DNA of 64,000 bases from NCBI GenBank assembly GCA_009782775.1, contig WRIL01000012.1, positions 1 through 64,000 of the forward strand. Reading direction: 5' to 3'. Position 1 is the first letter of the stretch, and each line of letters starts with the position of its first letter. Below the pieces are notes generated by a model. That model saw nothing but the letters and a program-made list of their open reading frames with translations, was not told where the DNA came from and made no database searches. Position numbers and translations under genes: made by a program. The DNA is from Desulfovibrionaceae bacterium. GTDB lineage: Bacteria > Desulfobacterota > Desulfovibrionia > Desulfovibrionales > Desulfovibrionaceae. Shown piece after piece: positions 29,991 through 55,941 of the stretch.

Positions 29991-30264
29991 AATAAAATAT
30001 ATGGTTAAAGATAAATAGCGGCAATGTCATTCCGTAAAAATCCGGAAAAATAATTAACCCAAGCGGCGGGCAATGGGAAGGCGAGCAAAAAAAAATTATG
30101 CCTTAACCAACAATATTTACTTTATATTTTTTTTATTCGTTGTCTTTACGCTTATATAGGCAAAAGCCGCCCCGCCTCGAAAATAGTTCATAAGGCGATG
30201 GTGGCAGCCAAAGTATAAAGTTAGGGATTGGAGCGGAAAGCCCCAGCACTATCGGCAGGCCAAC
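29991..30264. other. nrdJ-dnaA intergenic region, candidate origin segment
   Basis: 274 bases between the divergent nrdJ and dnaA genes. It holds A-runs and T-runs (30088-30097, 30110-30135) and three GGTTAA/TTAACC hexamers spaced near 50 bases (30003, 30054, 30103). Reading both strands I found no TTATNCACA DnaA box. Both promoters must lie here. The in-frame TAG at 30184 shows that dnaA cannot extend upstream. Confidence 0.5.
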
Positions 30265-31179
30265 ATGAACCTCGGGTCTTTCCTATATAACCGCAAAAAT
30301 GCGGCGGCGGTCCGGGCCGCTGAAAACTTCTCCAGGGGCTCTCTGGACGAGCCTCTTATTTTTCATGGTCCGCCAGCCTGTGGCAAAACCTGCCTTCTGC
30401 TGTCCATACACTCGGCTCTGGAAAATATTTCTCCGAGTTCCTCTTATTATTTTAATATGTTAGAAGGATACTTTCCTTGCACGAAAAATCAGGAAAAACT
30501 GGATAAACCTGACTTTTTACGCTATGTTCTTCTGGACAACGTTGAGGCCGACAAACTGGCGGAAATAGCGGCCTGCGGTAAAGAATCCAAAGGGCTAATT
30601 CTGGCTATGAGGTCCGGTCGGCAACCTGATGAAATTTCGGTGGCATTTGCAGACAAAAAACCTGAAATACATGCACTTGTCATGCCGGATCTTGATATCC
30701 GCCTCCGCTGGCTGCTACGGAAAGCGCATGAGCTTGGAATTACTCATGATAACCGGCATATATTGAAATTAGCCTTAAACTATCAGGATTTGGAATCAGC
30801 TTCAAAACACCTTAACAAAAAAGCCGCTGCTTTTATGGTGAACGTCCGGGCAAGACCTCTAACCCCGGAAGAAATCATTCAAAAGGTGGCGAATTTTTTT
30901 GGCATCGATCCCGAGCAAATCCTGGGAAACAGCCGGGTCAAGAAAATAAACCTAGCACGGCAACTGGCCATGTTTTTATGCCGGGATCTCCTTAAGGCCA
31001 ACCTTAAATTCATAGGAGACTGTTTTCACGGAAAAAATCATACCTCTGTTTTATACTCATTAAATAAAATAAGCATATTATGTAAGAAAAATCAAGATAT
31101 ACACAATTTGGTAACAAGACTGAAACAAAATATCACCCAACAGGCGAGCACACGGACGGCCACAAGAAAAAATTCCTGA
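30265..31179 (+). CDS. dnaA: Short, divergent DnaA-type replication initiator
   Basis: 304 residues against about 450 for normal DnaA. It starts at the beginning of the AAA+ domain, so domains I and II are missing; an in-frame TAG at 30184 with no start codon between rules out a longer form. Walker A is GPPACGKT (35-42). Walker B reads LLDN (Asp91, then Asn instead of an acid). The segment expected to hold the arginine finger (about 126-132) has none, and sensor II reads NYQDLE, where Arg is usual. Domain IV is clear (IIQKVANFFGIDPEQILG, ARQLAMFLCRDLL), but its signature is HGKNHTSV (255-262) instead of GGRDHTTV. Position before dnaN-gyrB-gyrA supports the name; function as sole initiator is uncertain. 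Confidence 0.8.
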   Translation: MNLGSFLYNRKNAAAVRAAENFSRGSLDEPLIFHGPPACGKTCLLLSIHSALENISPSSSYYFNMLEGYFPCTKNQEKLDKPDFLRYVLLDNVEADKLAEIAACGKESKGLILAMRSGRQPDEISVAFADKKPEIHALVMPDLDIRLRWLLRKAHELGITHDNRHILKLALNYQDLESASKHLNKKAAAFMVNVRARPLTPEEIIQKVANFFGIDPEQILGNSRVKKINLARQLAMFLCRDLLKANLKFIGDCFHGKNHTSVLYSLNKISILCKKNQDIHNLVTRLKQNITQQASTRTATRKNS

Positions 31180-31186
31180 CCAAGGG

Positions 31187-31262
31187 TATAAAAAAAACAT
31201 TATTGTATAAATTATTATTAAATAATATAATATATTATTTATATTATATACAAAAAAACAAA
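31187..31262. other. Extreme A/T tract between dnaA and dnaN, candidate unwinding element
   Basis: Only 4 of 76 bases are G or C, and 31206-31250 is an unbroken 45-base A/T run. It lies between the dnaA stop and the dnaN ribosome-binding site (TAAGGAG). Such a tract next to dnaA is what a DNA-unwinding element looks like; it could alternatively be the dnaN promoter region only. Confidence 0.55.
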
Positions 31263-31293
31263 CCACTCTTCTACCACTAATAAGGAGATTTTT

Positions 31294-34883
<3,590 letters not shown>

Positions 34884-52210: not shown

Positions 52211-54508
52211 CTATTTCCGGCGAAGAAAATAACCAGCCAGTTTATGCAAACCCGCGCCATGCGAACCTTTTATAAGTATCACATCGTTATCCGCTATCCA
52301 GTTGGATATATCTCTGATGAGCCCGACCGCATCGGCATACCAGCGCCCTGAATAGTCGTCAGAAATTGTCTCCCACAGATTAAGCATTTCTTCGCCGCAG
52401 AGGAGCACGCGATCCGGATCCGCCTTGCGCACATGTTCCTCAAGTTCGCGATGGTATGCAACAGAACCTTCGCCAAGTTCCAGCATATCCCCCAATATCA
52501 GGACGCGGGAGGATTTACGGTGTCTTTCTTCGGAAAACGCCAGCAACGTCGCACGCACCGAAGCTGGATTGGCATTATAGGACTCATCTATTATGGTGAT
52601 CTCCTTATTTTCAAATATGATCTTATGCCTCATTCCTCTTCCGGCAATAGGCGGCAAGGACGCGATATCGGCGCAGCTTTTTTCATGAGGCAGACCGAAG
52701 GCCAAAAGCACGCCTAAGGCCGCTAGGGCGTTCATGGCCGTATAATGCCCATAACCAGGAAGTTTTACTAAGTACTGTTTATCATTATAAATAAATTCCA
52801 TATCGTCATTAATACATTTTACAAGGCGCAAGGTGGAATTCGCCCTTTCGCCGAAGGTAATGATCTTTTCGGTCTTCTGTAGCGCTTCCTCTTTAAAAAG
52901 ATCAAACATTTCCATATCGTGATTGATCACGGCGTGCCCGCCGGGGCGCAGTCCGCTGAAAATTTTGCTTTTATAGAAAGCGAGATTTTTCACGGTTCTC
53001 CAATATTTCAGGTGCCCGGCCGAAACATTTAGGGCCACAGCCACATCCGGACCGGCAAGAGAGGCGCTGTTGCGCATTTCAGGCACAGCCAGCTCCAGAA
53101 CCCACCACCTGGAGGTCAGATCCATGGCTGCCATATTCCAGGCCATTCCGTAAAAGGTGTTGGCGTTAAGCTGGGTCTGTGAAACCGTTCCATAGCGCGC
53201 CAGCAGATAGGCGATCAGGGCTACGGTGGTGGTTTTTCCGCTGGTACCGGTCACCGCGACCACTTTCCCTCTGAAAAGTCCACGCGCCGTGGCGGCCAGC
53301 GCGAATACCGCGTCTGATATGCCGTTTACCTTCAGTACCGGCAACCCGCTGTTCACCCAGGGATCGGGATCTGTACAAATGATCCCGGCGGCGTCAGCGG
53401 CTAATTTTTGGGCGGCCTTTCGGGATAGCCCCCGTTTTTCCTCTGCGCTTCTCGCCATGAGCATGTCGCCGGGTTTAAAAGATTCCCACCAAGCGCACAT
53501 GCCTACGGCGCTCCAATCAGCTGGAGACGGTATAATCCACTCTCCCCCCGTGGCTTCGGCCAATATCTCCGGCGTCCACACTGGAGCTTCCTCGCGCGGA
53601 ACATCAGCGGATTCCATGCTGGGCTTCTTATTTTCAGCTAGAGAAACCAACTCCATCTCTCTTGTCGTTGTCACCTTGACGTAAAAAAGCTTTTTCCAGG
53701 TCTCCGCGTCGCGATGTTCCAAAGGGTTCAGGGTCTTGCCGATAAAATCGAAAATCTGATCCTCCCGTACCGGCATCATGGCCCCGGCATGATGCAGCAA
53801 ACCGAAGTAATCCAGTTTATTGATCTCATCCAGAGAAGAAAATAGCAATTTTCTTAAACTATCTTCAGATTTCCATATTATTGTCTGTGATGCTCCTGAT
53901 GCAATAGTACAATATGAATATTGCTGATATTTATCGTGTATCGCAAGTACGGTCTTAAATACATCGCCATGCCAAAAATTAACCGCGATACCGGCCATAC
54001 GCCGATATTTTACAGATAGGTTTTCATCAGGTATGCTGCTGTATGGATCACATGGAACAGTAGCGTTCAAAATAAATAGTGTCTTGTTGTGCGCATATCG
54101 CATGCTATTTTCAAAATCACGAAAAGACTGCGAAAATGTGTGCGTTCCATTGATAAATATAATGTCAAATGAAGGTTTTCCAAATATACTCGTTACTAAT
54201 GATGCTGTCCGGGAACCTGGAAAGGCCATTTGCGTAAAAAATGCGTCTGAAGACATCTTGCAAAATAATATCCCCGCGGCTGGGTTAGCCTCAGTAAAGT
54301 CCGCATGAGGGCTGACGGCCAGCTTCTTGGGAACTGCTACCTCGGAAAAATTTTTCCCCCTGAGCCGGCCTATCTCAAGATAAGACTTGGCCTCATACCG
54401 CTTGGCCAGATAATTGATACGCCCGGTAAGGCCCTTTGGAAAATCCGCGCTCATAAGCTGCCCCTGTGTTCCATCGGTAAAGCAATACGCCAAAACGATC
54501 CGGATCAC
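52211..54508 (-). CDS. Fusion: methyltransferase-like domain plus MurF-type Mur ligase
   Basis: 765 residues. Residues about 30-215 have the SAM-methyltransferase 24 layout (SYLEIGRLRGKNFSEV, FDIIFINGTHTFSQSFRDFENSM), but the usual IDGxH aspartate is Asn and the later HDxxP reads NATVP. From about 312 the protein is a Mur ligase: WTPEILAEATGGEW, P-loop VTGTSGKTTT (421-428), FYKSKIFSGLRPGG with the carbamylated-lysine position, GRGMRHKII, DESYNANPASVRATL and LGDMLELG, which place it with MurF. No other peptidoglycan genes adjoin it. A role in ligating an amino acid or peptide to a surface glycan precursor is inference. It is divergent from the hydrolase-like gene. Confidence 0.82.
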   Translation of the reverse strand: MIRIVLAYCFTDGTQGQLMSADFPKGLTGRINYLAKRYEAKSYLEIGRLRGKNFSEVAVPKKLAVSPHADFTEANPAAGILFCKMSSDAFFTQMAFPGSRTASLVTSIFGKPSFDIIFINGTHTFSQSFRDFENSMRYAHNKTLFILNATVPCDPYSSIPDENLSVKYRRMAGIAVNFWHGDVFKTVLAIHDKYQQYSYCTIASGASQTIIWKSEDSLRKLLFSSLDEINKLDYFGLLHHAGAMMPVREDQIFDFIGKTLNPLEHRDAETWKKLFYVKVTTTREMELVSLAENKKPSMESADVPREEAPVWTPEILAEATGGEWIIPSPADWSAVGMCAWWESFKPGDMLMARSAEEKRGLSRKAAQKLAADAAGIICTDPDPWVNSGLPVLKVNGISDAVFALAATARGLFRGKVVAVTGTSGKTTTVALIAYLLARYGTVSQTQLNANTFYGMAWNMAAMDLTSRWWVLELAVPEMRNSASLAGPDVAVALNVSAGHLKYWRTVKNLAFYKSKIFSGLRPGGHAVINHDMEMFDLFKEEALQKTEKIITFGERANSTLRLVKCINDDMEFIYNDKQYLVKLPGYGHYTAMNALAALGVLLAFGLPHEKSCADIASLPPIAGRGMRHKIIFENKEITIIDESYNANPASVRATLLAFSEERHRKSSRVLILGDMLELGEGSVAYHRELEEHVRKADPDRVLLCGEEMLNLWETISDDYSGRWYADAVGLIRDISNWIADNDVILIKGSHGAGLHKLAGYFLRRK

Positions 54509-54606: not shown

Positions 54607-55941
54607 ATGACAACATCTGGTGGAGTCAGTGCGATATTGGCGGATGAGATCGTGGAGAAAGCTTTTGAGGAAGAACGTCTTTGCGATGGTTGCATTATCC
54701 GGAAAAATCCCAATTCTCCACATGTATTATTTGTTTTTTGCGCGATAGACGTTCCCTTTGGCGCTGTTCCCGGAGGAAATAACTTGTTTGTTGCAGAAAA
54801 ACTTGATGCAAATATTGTCATTTTAAATGACCGCAAAAAAATATGGTACCTAGAAGGCATTGAAGGACTCGGGACAGATATGCACAGCACCGCTGCCCGC
54901 CTGGCGGAAATCCGGAATACGCTTTTGCAGACTGGAGGAATAGCGCTGACCTATGGCAATTCCATGGGGGCGTTCGGCGCTTGTCTTTATGGCGCCTTAT
55001 TGAATGTTGACATGGTGATTGCGCCCGGGGCGCAGCTTTTGGCCCCCAATCCGGTAGGGGTCTTTCAGCATTATGCAGGGAAAAGGATTGACATCAAGTC
55101 GATCATGGCCTCTTCATCAGCTTTTTTCCATCTGCTTGTAGGGGAATGCTTTTTGGGGGATATTATCGGTTGCCTCCTGGTTATGGATTTGCCTAATGTA
55201 TATATACAAACTGTGCGCAACTTCGAACATAGCGTCACAGGATATATGCAAATAAGACATAATATCATAAAAATTATTAATAAATATATTAAAATTACAA
55301 CATATAGAAAGCAAAAAAACTTGGAACTAGATAAAGAAATAGGTGTTTTTTTTATAAATCTTGTCGATTCAAGAGATTCAGGATATATTATTTGTAATAA
55401 ATATGCTGCTCTATATATTTATACAACAGAAATTATGCTCAAATATAAAAAAGGCAACCACATAAAAAGATTGCATAAAATGATTGAAATATCAAATAAT
55501 ATTGAAAATAAAGTAATAAAAAGTTATATTTATTATTATATAGCAATGATTTTTTATTCATTCAATAACAAAACAAGATATCTTCAACGTATATATAATT
55601 ATGCTGAAAAAGGATTTATATTAAATAATACAAGCCTGCGTATTTCACAATTCTTGTCAACATTCTGCTATACACAAAAATGGTGGGAAAAATGCCTATA
55701 CTGGAGCCAGATGGCCATAGCTTGCAGACATGGAGATATGGCCAGACATTTCTATCACAACAATCTTTGCTATGCCGAACAGGTTGAAAGCCTTCGTCAG
55801 CTCGGCGCAACTGGCGCAGCCCGCATTGTTGGTGAACAGTATAAAATTGCCACACTTAACCGGACCCTCAACAGATGCATTGCGGATTATGCCGCCCTAA
55901 GTGAGGCTGTGGAGCGTTGCGGGAATAAGGACATCAGATGA
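54607..55941 (+). CDS. Alpha/beta-hydrolase-like protein with very A/T-rich C-terminal half
   Basis: 444 residues. The N-terminal 200 residues look like an alpha/beta-hydrolase: VLFVFCAIDVPFG strand, LEGIEGLG, and the nucleophile elbow TYGNSMGAFGACLYG with Ser119 (G-N-S-M-G). The C-terminal 240 residues are helical, with Lys, Ile, Asn and Tyr repeats of TPR flavour (YNYAEKGFILNNTSL, LYWSQMAIACRHGDMARHFYHN). Base composition drops to about 12% G+C in 55261-55320 and again in 55501-55560, unlike all neighbours, then recovers. It overlaps the convergent hisG end by 8 bases. Function unknown; linkage to the MurF-fusion gene suggests glycan or peptide processing. Confidence 0.65.
   Translation: MTTSGGVSAILADEIVEKAFEEERLCDGCIIRKNPNSPHVLFVFCAIDVPFGAVPGGNNLFVAEKLDANIVILNDRKKIWYLEGIEGLGTDMHSTAARLAEIRNTLLQTGGIALTYGNSMGAFGACLYGALLNVDMVIAPGAQLLAPNPVGVFQHYAGKRIDIKSIMASSSAFFHLLVGECFLGDIIGCLLVMDLPNVYIQTVRNFEHSVTGYMQIRHNIIKIINKYIKITTYRKQKNLELDKEIGVFFINLVDSRDSGYIICNKYAALYIYTTEIMLKYKKGNHIKRLHKMIEISNNIENKVIKSYIYYYIAMIFYSFNNKTRYLQRIYNYAEKGFILNNTSLRISQFLSTFCYTQKWWEKCLYWSQMAIACRHGDMARHFYHNNLCYAEQVESLRQLGATGAARIVGEQYKIATLNRTLNRCIADYAALSEAVERCGNKDIR

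Follow-up and report, generated by a model that had tools for sequence, protein, structure and literature searches.

The Desulfovibrionales generally carry two DnaA proteins, a fast-evolving one encoded next to dnaN (DnaA-N) and one encoded at a distance from it (DnaA-U), and the 304-residue DnaA found in the 64,000-nucleotide stretch of DNA analyzed in this study (the window) is, judged by its sequence, an extreme DnaA-N. In the termite-gut lineage of sulfate reducers from which the window comes, replication is most likely initiated by a full-length DnaA encoded at another place in the genome. The reading that we favor, and that we consider probable, is that DnaA-U initiates in trans, with the short DnaA-N serving as an accessory or regulatory predicted DNA binder that takes no part in melting or helicase loading. 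The original prediction needs amending in that the window DnaA is not an isolated case, two DnaAs being normal across the order.

The window locus reads nrdJ (divergent), dnaA-N, dnaN, gyrB, and gyrA (Table 1). The open reading frame is as originally described, with 304 codons from 30265 to 31179, domains I and II absent, and an in-frame TAG at 30184. A frameshift concealing domains I and II, or a domain I hidden in another frame, was ruled out by a search with a domain I profile derived from relatives: no remnant scored in any of the six frames between 29700 and 31400, while the same profile recovered two full-length DnaAs, run as controls, with E values of about 1e-32. Stop codons occur in all three forward frames of the nrdJ/dnaA-N gap, and the codon-position GC of dnaA-N (0.51/0.36/0.45) is similar to that of the adjoining dnaN. 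A sigma-70 promoter scan gave matches no more numerous than in shuffled sequences.

Table 1. Coordinates of the features at the dnaA-N locus of the window
Feature	Position	Strand	Remarks
Intergenic region, divergent nrdJ/dnaA-N	29991..30264	.	274 bp
In-frame TAG	30184..30186	+	bars N-terminal extension of the short DnaA-N
Short dnaN-linked DnaA (DnaA-N class)	30265..31179	+	304 aa, domains III-IV only
Walker A GPPACGKT	30367..30390	+	residues 35-42, intact
Place of the initiator-specific motif	30460..30516	+	residues 66-84, degenerate; no helix; pLDDT <50 at 74-82
Walker B YVLLDN	30523..30540	+	residues 87-92; D91 conserved, Asn in place of the second Asp
Arginine-finger position	30664..30666	+	R replaced by E134
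Sensor II position	30793..30795	+	R replaced by E177
Domain IV (PF08299), DNA-binding domain	30865..31071	+	well conserved; profile, alignment, structure match
DnaA signature HGKNHTSV	31027..31050	+	residues 255-262
dnaA-N/dnaN intergenic region	31180..31293	.	17.5% GC; likely origin/unwinding region
dnaN	31294..32472	+	
gyrB	32469..34883	+	

The encoded protein belongs to the DnaA superfamily and, within it, to the DnaA-N clade of the Desulfovibrionales, but is diverged and truncated. Its domain IV is matched by PF08299 (4.7e-23, 81.4 bits, cut-off 31.5), and neither PF00308 (DnaA ATPase) nor PF11638 (DnaA_N, domain I) matches anywhere in the protein. The DnaA equivalog profile TIGR00362 scores 96.4 bits, under its cut-off of 343.9, and the Hda profile TIGR03420 hits residues 3-193 weakly (34.3 bits against a cut-off of 194.8). 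The AlphaFold model folds well (pLDDT 87.5); domain III superposes on 2z4r with a Z score of 17.0, despite the missing PF00308 match, and domain IV on 3pvp (M. tuberculosis DnaA-DNA) with a Z score of 18.8 and an rmsd of 0.9 Å. Common features with the bacterial initiator DnaA (for example, E. coli DnaA; PDB entries 1l8q, 2hcb, and 8btg) are the domain III-IV fold, the Walker A motif, the first Walker B aspartate, and the helix-turn-helix of domain IV; the locus, too, resembles known DnaA loci in its dnaA-dnaN-gyrB order and its position at the GC-skew minimum. On the other hand, domains I-II, the initiator-specific motif, the arginine finger, and the sensor II arginine are all missing; the window protein lacks most of the defining features of an initiator DnaA. 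A short DnaA-family protein without domain I and with a probably regulatory role is reminiscent of Hda. However, Hda has no DNA-binding domain IV, and the presence of this domain means that the window protein is not Hda. The smallest DnaA named in a review has 399 residues (PMC5448010), compared with the 304 of the window protein.

Residue changes were counted across 48 aligned dnaN-linked DnaAs (the window protein plus 47 relatives); G35, G40, K41, and D91 are retained in the window protein. The defects listed in the original prediction proved real but unequal in weight. The Walker B aspartate is indeed followed by asparagine (D91-N92), yet the same asparagine occurs in the full-length DnaA-N of both genus-mates G034 and G082, and the change is thus not peculiar to the window protein. 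The reported absence of the two arginines, by contrast, is borne out: the finger column holds R in 46/47 and the sensor II column in 44/47 relatives, where the window protein has E134 and E177. Both are substitutions and not a simple shift of the residues, with the reservation that a different alignment has gaps in the finger column. What had been overlooked is a stronger defect, the loss of the initiator-specific motif. The positions of E. coli V211, F222, K243, and R245 are altered or deleted, and the loop that follows Walker B has lost nine residues. This loss extends beyond the window: F222 is found in 13/13 phylum outgroup sequences and 35/35 DnaA-U proteins but in only 6/39 DnaA-N proteins, K243 is found in 12/13 and 30/35, respectively, and varies in DnaA-N, and position 211, which is V or I in 13/13 of the outgroup, likewise varies in DnaA-N. 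On these counts, loss of the initiator-specific motif for single-strand binding is a property of the entire dnaN-linked class.

The DNA-recognition signature has changed less. Within the base-contact trio of E. coli DnaA, D433-H434-T435, only D433 is altered in the window protein. Among the dnaN-linked relatives, the lysine occurs in 25/47, asparagine in place of aspartate in 3/47, and the serine in 13/47 signatures, and because the changes lie mostly inside this class variation, the alteration in DNA recognition is real but mild. The HGKNHTSV motif and its altered D433 stand as originally noted, whereas its Lys and Ser changes are ordinary for the class, and the suggestion that the protein reads a different box is weak, all the more as DnaA-U itself has replaced Asp433 in nearly all members, often by Arg.

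Another contig of the same genome (C29) encodes the counterpart of the short protein, a DnaA of 471 residues in which domains I, III, and IV are all present. Two PF08299 proteins are present in nearly every good genome of the family, a pattern that reaches other families of the order. DnaA-N and DnaA-U form two order-wide clades (SH-aLRT 100 each) on long branches from ordinary DnaA; the order-wide residue pattern was drawn from loci L064-L103 and L244-L263. The window protein groups with the DnaA-N of G034/G082 on the longest end branch (2.18), and given this long branch and an SH-aLRT of 86 in one quick maximum-likelihood tree, this placement has support, though some doubt attaches to it. 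The DnaA-U class retains the single-strand motif and sensor II, and its Walker B Asp235 has become Glu; the 471-residue protein scores 112 bits against PF00308, compared with 252 for E. coli. A second canonical dnaA had been predicted elsewhere in the genome, and a full-length one was found; by its PF00308 score it is itself derived, and with Asp433 replaced in nearly all members and the Walker B Asp turned into Glu, class U is not simply canonical. The contrast between a DnaA-N class without the initiator-specific motif and a DnaA-U class that keeps it, with changes at Asp433 and Asp235, makes a division of labor possible. DnaA-U was not detected in four drafts that do contain DnaA-N, namely G011 (98% complete), G024 (99%), G064, and G168 (range 91-99%). 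These cases might reflect assembly gaps or true losses, and DnaA-U might not be universal.

By GC skew, the replication origin likely adjoins the window dnaA-N, as the cumulative minimum of the window falls at 31277, inside the dnaA-N/dnaN gap. Two closed genomes, G047 and G039, have their skew switch at the locus linked to dnaN rather than at DnaA-U, and in G039 a short DnaA-N and the origin share one locus. No DnaA box TTATCCACA was found with up to one mismatch near the window origin, nor in the nrdJ/dnaA-N gap. About 10 relatives with Desulfovibrio-type loci (L225, L188, L187, L204, L205, and L212, among others) carry a conserved inverted TTTTCCACA/TTATCCACA pair that flanks some 180 bp in front of dnaA-N, its two boxes lying approximately 207 and 27 bp from the gene, and this pair is absent upstream of the window gene. 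A de novo k-mer search upstream of DnaA-N recovered the same box together with coding-biased words. That no DnaA box is recognizable near the window origin weighs against our favored reading, as do the missing DnaA-U in drafts G011 and G024, the N-less loci that show no clear skew switch at dnaN, and the loss of the gene from the sister lineage G079, which a relic would lead one to expect.

DnaA-N appears to be dispensed with altogether in part of the order, being wholly missing from at least seven genomes that retain DnaA-U. Among 80 named dnaN loci, 68 have a full-length DnaA-N and six clearly have none (at least 5.5 kb of upstream sequence being present), the rest being cut by contig ends or ambiguous. 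The six N-less genomes, with an intact dnaN locus in each case (L178, L180, L210, L215, L220, and L232), have a single DnaA, which belongs to class U. Genome G006 (1.5 Mb, 100% complete) has no DnaA-N upstream of dnaN either, and its sole DnaA is a DnaA-U. Both G006 and G059 have dnaN still at the skew switch despite the loss of DnaA-N, whereas their DnaA-U locus shows no switch, which suggests that DnaA-U initiates in trans there. DnaA-N is also lacking from the termite-gut MAG Iy174_bin43 (G079), which comes out next to the window genome, as its sister, among the DnaA-U sequences of the tree and in which hldE-nrdJ adjoins the dnaN locus as in the window. Neither G079 nor the Mailhella-type N-less loci show a clear skew switch at dnaN, so the origin may have moved in these genomes. 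At the position of dnaA-N, G079 carries genes for a MerR-like regulator and a heavy-metal-resistance-like protein (L117:6505-8080).

Shortening of DnaA-N, on the other hand, is not confined to the window. All six genomes of genus g39 (G039, G067, and G165-G168, one of them closed) have a short DnaA-N with frames of 331-351 residues. These sit on a different branch of the N clade from the window protein, and domains I-II have therefore been lost at least twice, independently. The usable, not fully saturated comparisons within g39 give dN/dS values of 0.11-0.19, like DnaA-U; saturated pairs were excluded, and the value of 0.46 for the closest pair (G165/G039) is based on too small a number of changes. 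The short DnaA-N gene of g39 is under purifying selection. For the window gene a direct dN/dS estimate is impossible, its nearest DnaA-N being about 35% identical. Branch lengths for domains III/IV are 2.35/0.70 for the window protein and 0.38/0.33 and 0.52/0.34 for its full-length genus-mates, so that on the window branch the divergence of domain IV is smaller than that of domain III by a factor of 3.4; an asymmetry of the same kind marks the g39 stem branch (1.56 for domain III versus 0.55 for domain IV). The domain IV score of the window protein (84.7 bits) exceeds those of the full-length genus-mates (75.2 and 69.4 bits), and the 304-codon frame is intact, although 0.3-0.7 neutral changes per site should have introduced some 11-27 stop codons. 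This indicates that selection kept the C-terminal DNA-binding domain over most of the window branch, though decay may have set in very recently.

Our favored reading links these observations as follows. With DnaA-N beside the origin and DnaA-U distal, the genome holds two paralogs, of which the window DnaA-N has been reduced to a P-loop domain and a DNA-binding domain. Helicase recruitment would have gone with domains I-II, the grip on single strands with the initiator-specific motif, and the ATP-dependent filament with the arginine finger and sensor II. From its distant locus, DnaA-U would melt the origin and load the helicase in trans, while the short DnaA-N may bind double-stranded DNA at the origin or close to it, probably in the dnaA-N/dnaN gap and perhaps at its own promoter. 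Its role might be, for example, site occupation, autorepression, or a limit on DnaA-U assembly. Recruitment of DnaB is the task of domain I, which cells require in vivo; an E. coli DnaA stripped of domains I-II can still unwind oriC in vitro but does not support viability (PMC5448010). The claim that the ori-proximal DnaA has no domain I route to DnaB is thus supported by the absence of domains I-II, and with the initiator-specific motif and the arginines of the ATP filament gone as well, unwinding by the window protein is not expected either. "Helper or regulator", as it had been put, is its best-supported predicted role.

The main rival is a decaying relic, a superfluous DnaA-N that has shed domains I-II and its ATPase residues and is heading for the loss already seen in G079. 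The sister relationship with this N-less genome, where hldE-nrdJ sit next to the locus, the lack of DnaA-N in several other genomes, the very long window branch, and the replacement of two key arginines by Glu all speak for it; yet the frame has stayed open against the expected number of stops, domain IV outscores that of the full-length genus-mates and has diverged less than domain III, and a parallel short form is kept throughout g39. We regard decay as possible though on balance unlikely. A draft assembly in 36 contigs with 84.6% completeness, the single one of its species seen, invites the suspicion that a frameshift or misjoin removed domains I-II. Such an error is hardly credible, as no frame has a domain I signal, nrdJ starts a mere 274 bp away and lies with hldE on the same side of dnaN in G079, a frameshift cannot produce the residue changes of domain III, and the same truncation recurs in six g39 genomes, including the closed one.

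It is very improbable, too, that the window DnaA-N is still a working initiator whose helicase is loaded by a route independent of domain I. The GC-skew minimum next to dnaN and the retained Walker A and domain IV would fit, whereas the initiator-specific motif, finger, and sensor II are all gone, the same genome has a full-length DnaA, and G006/G059 keep dnaN at the skew switch with DnaA-U only. A wider scheme, which we find doubtful, would make the order's initiator a split one: DnaA-N would read double-stranded sites, DnaA-U, with its rewritten recognition helix, would grip single strands, and the two would assemble together at a shared origin. In lineages in which DnaA-U had come to suffice by itself, DnaA-N would have shrunk (window, g39) or vanished.

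Compared with its closest counterparts, the DnaA-N of G034, G082, G008, and Nitratidesulfovibrio (L165), the window protein shares the orthologous position, the clade, the lost single-strand motif, and a GGKDHSTV-like signature; unlike it, these retain domain I, and most retain the finger and sensor II. With the short DnaA-N of g39 it has in common the missing domains I-II, a fast ATPase domain, a conserved domain IV, and the linkage to dnaN, but both Walker B aspartates persist in the g39 proteins, and those of G039 and G067 retain the sensor II arginine as well. Usually, recognition and melting of the origin fall to one and the same DnaA protein. The whole order appears to have divided DnaA in two, with the melting motif missing from the copy at the origin, which has repeatedly been truncated or lost, and present in the distant one. 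These proteins are natural "deletion mutants" for asking which parts of DnaA an origin requires, and Desulfovibrio vulgaris, whose two dnaA genes would be DVU0001 (beside dnaN) and DVU2252, is genetically tractable. They also caution that a dnaN-linked dnaA is not automatically the initiator. Waddlia (Chlamydiales) has two DnaA genes as well, neither linked to the GC-skew minimum (PMC2878342), unlike DnaA-N, which lies at it. The open-licence literature on Desulfovibrio dnaA and dnaA duplications yielded no description of a DnaA split or a short dnaN-linked DnaA in the Desulfovibrionales, and the main text of a TnSeq essentiality paper does not mention dnaA (PMC10102598).

Two further genes of the window deserve mention. 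The minus strand at 52211-54508 encodes a 765-residue protein in which, by eye, a putative Mur-ligase (MurF-like) domain follows an extra N-terminal domain. The open reading frame at 54607-55941 has an extremely AT-rich middle (13% GC near 55477) between ends of ordinary GC, as if its center were of foreign or relaxed composition.
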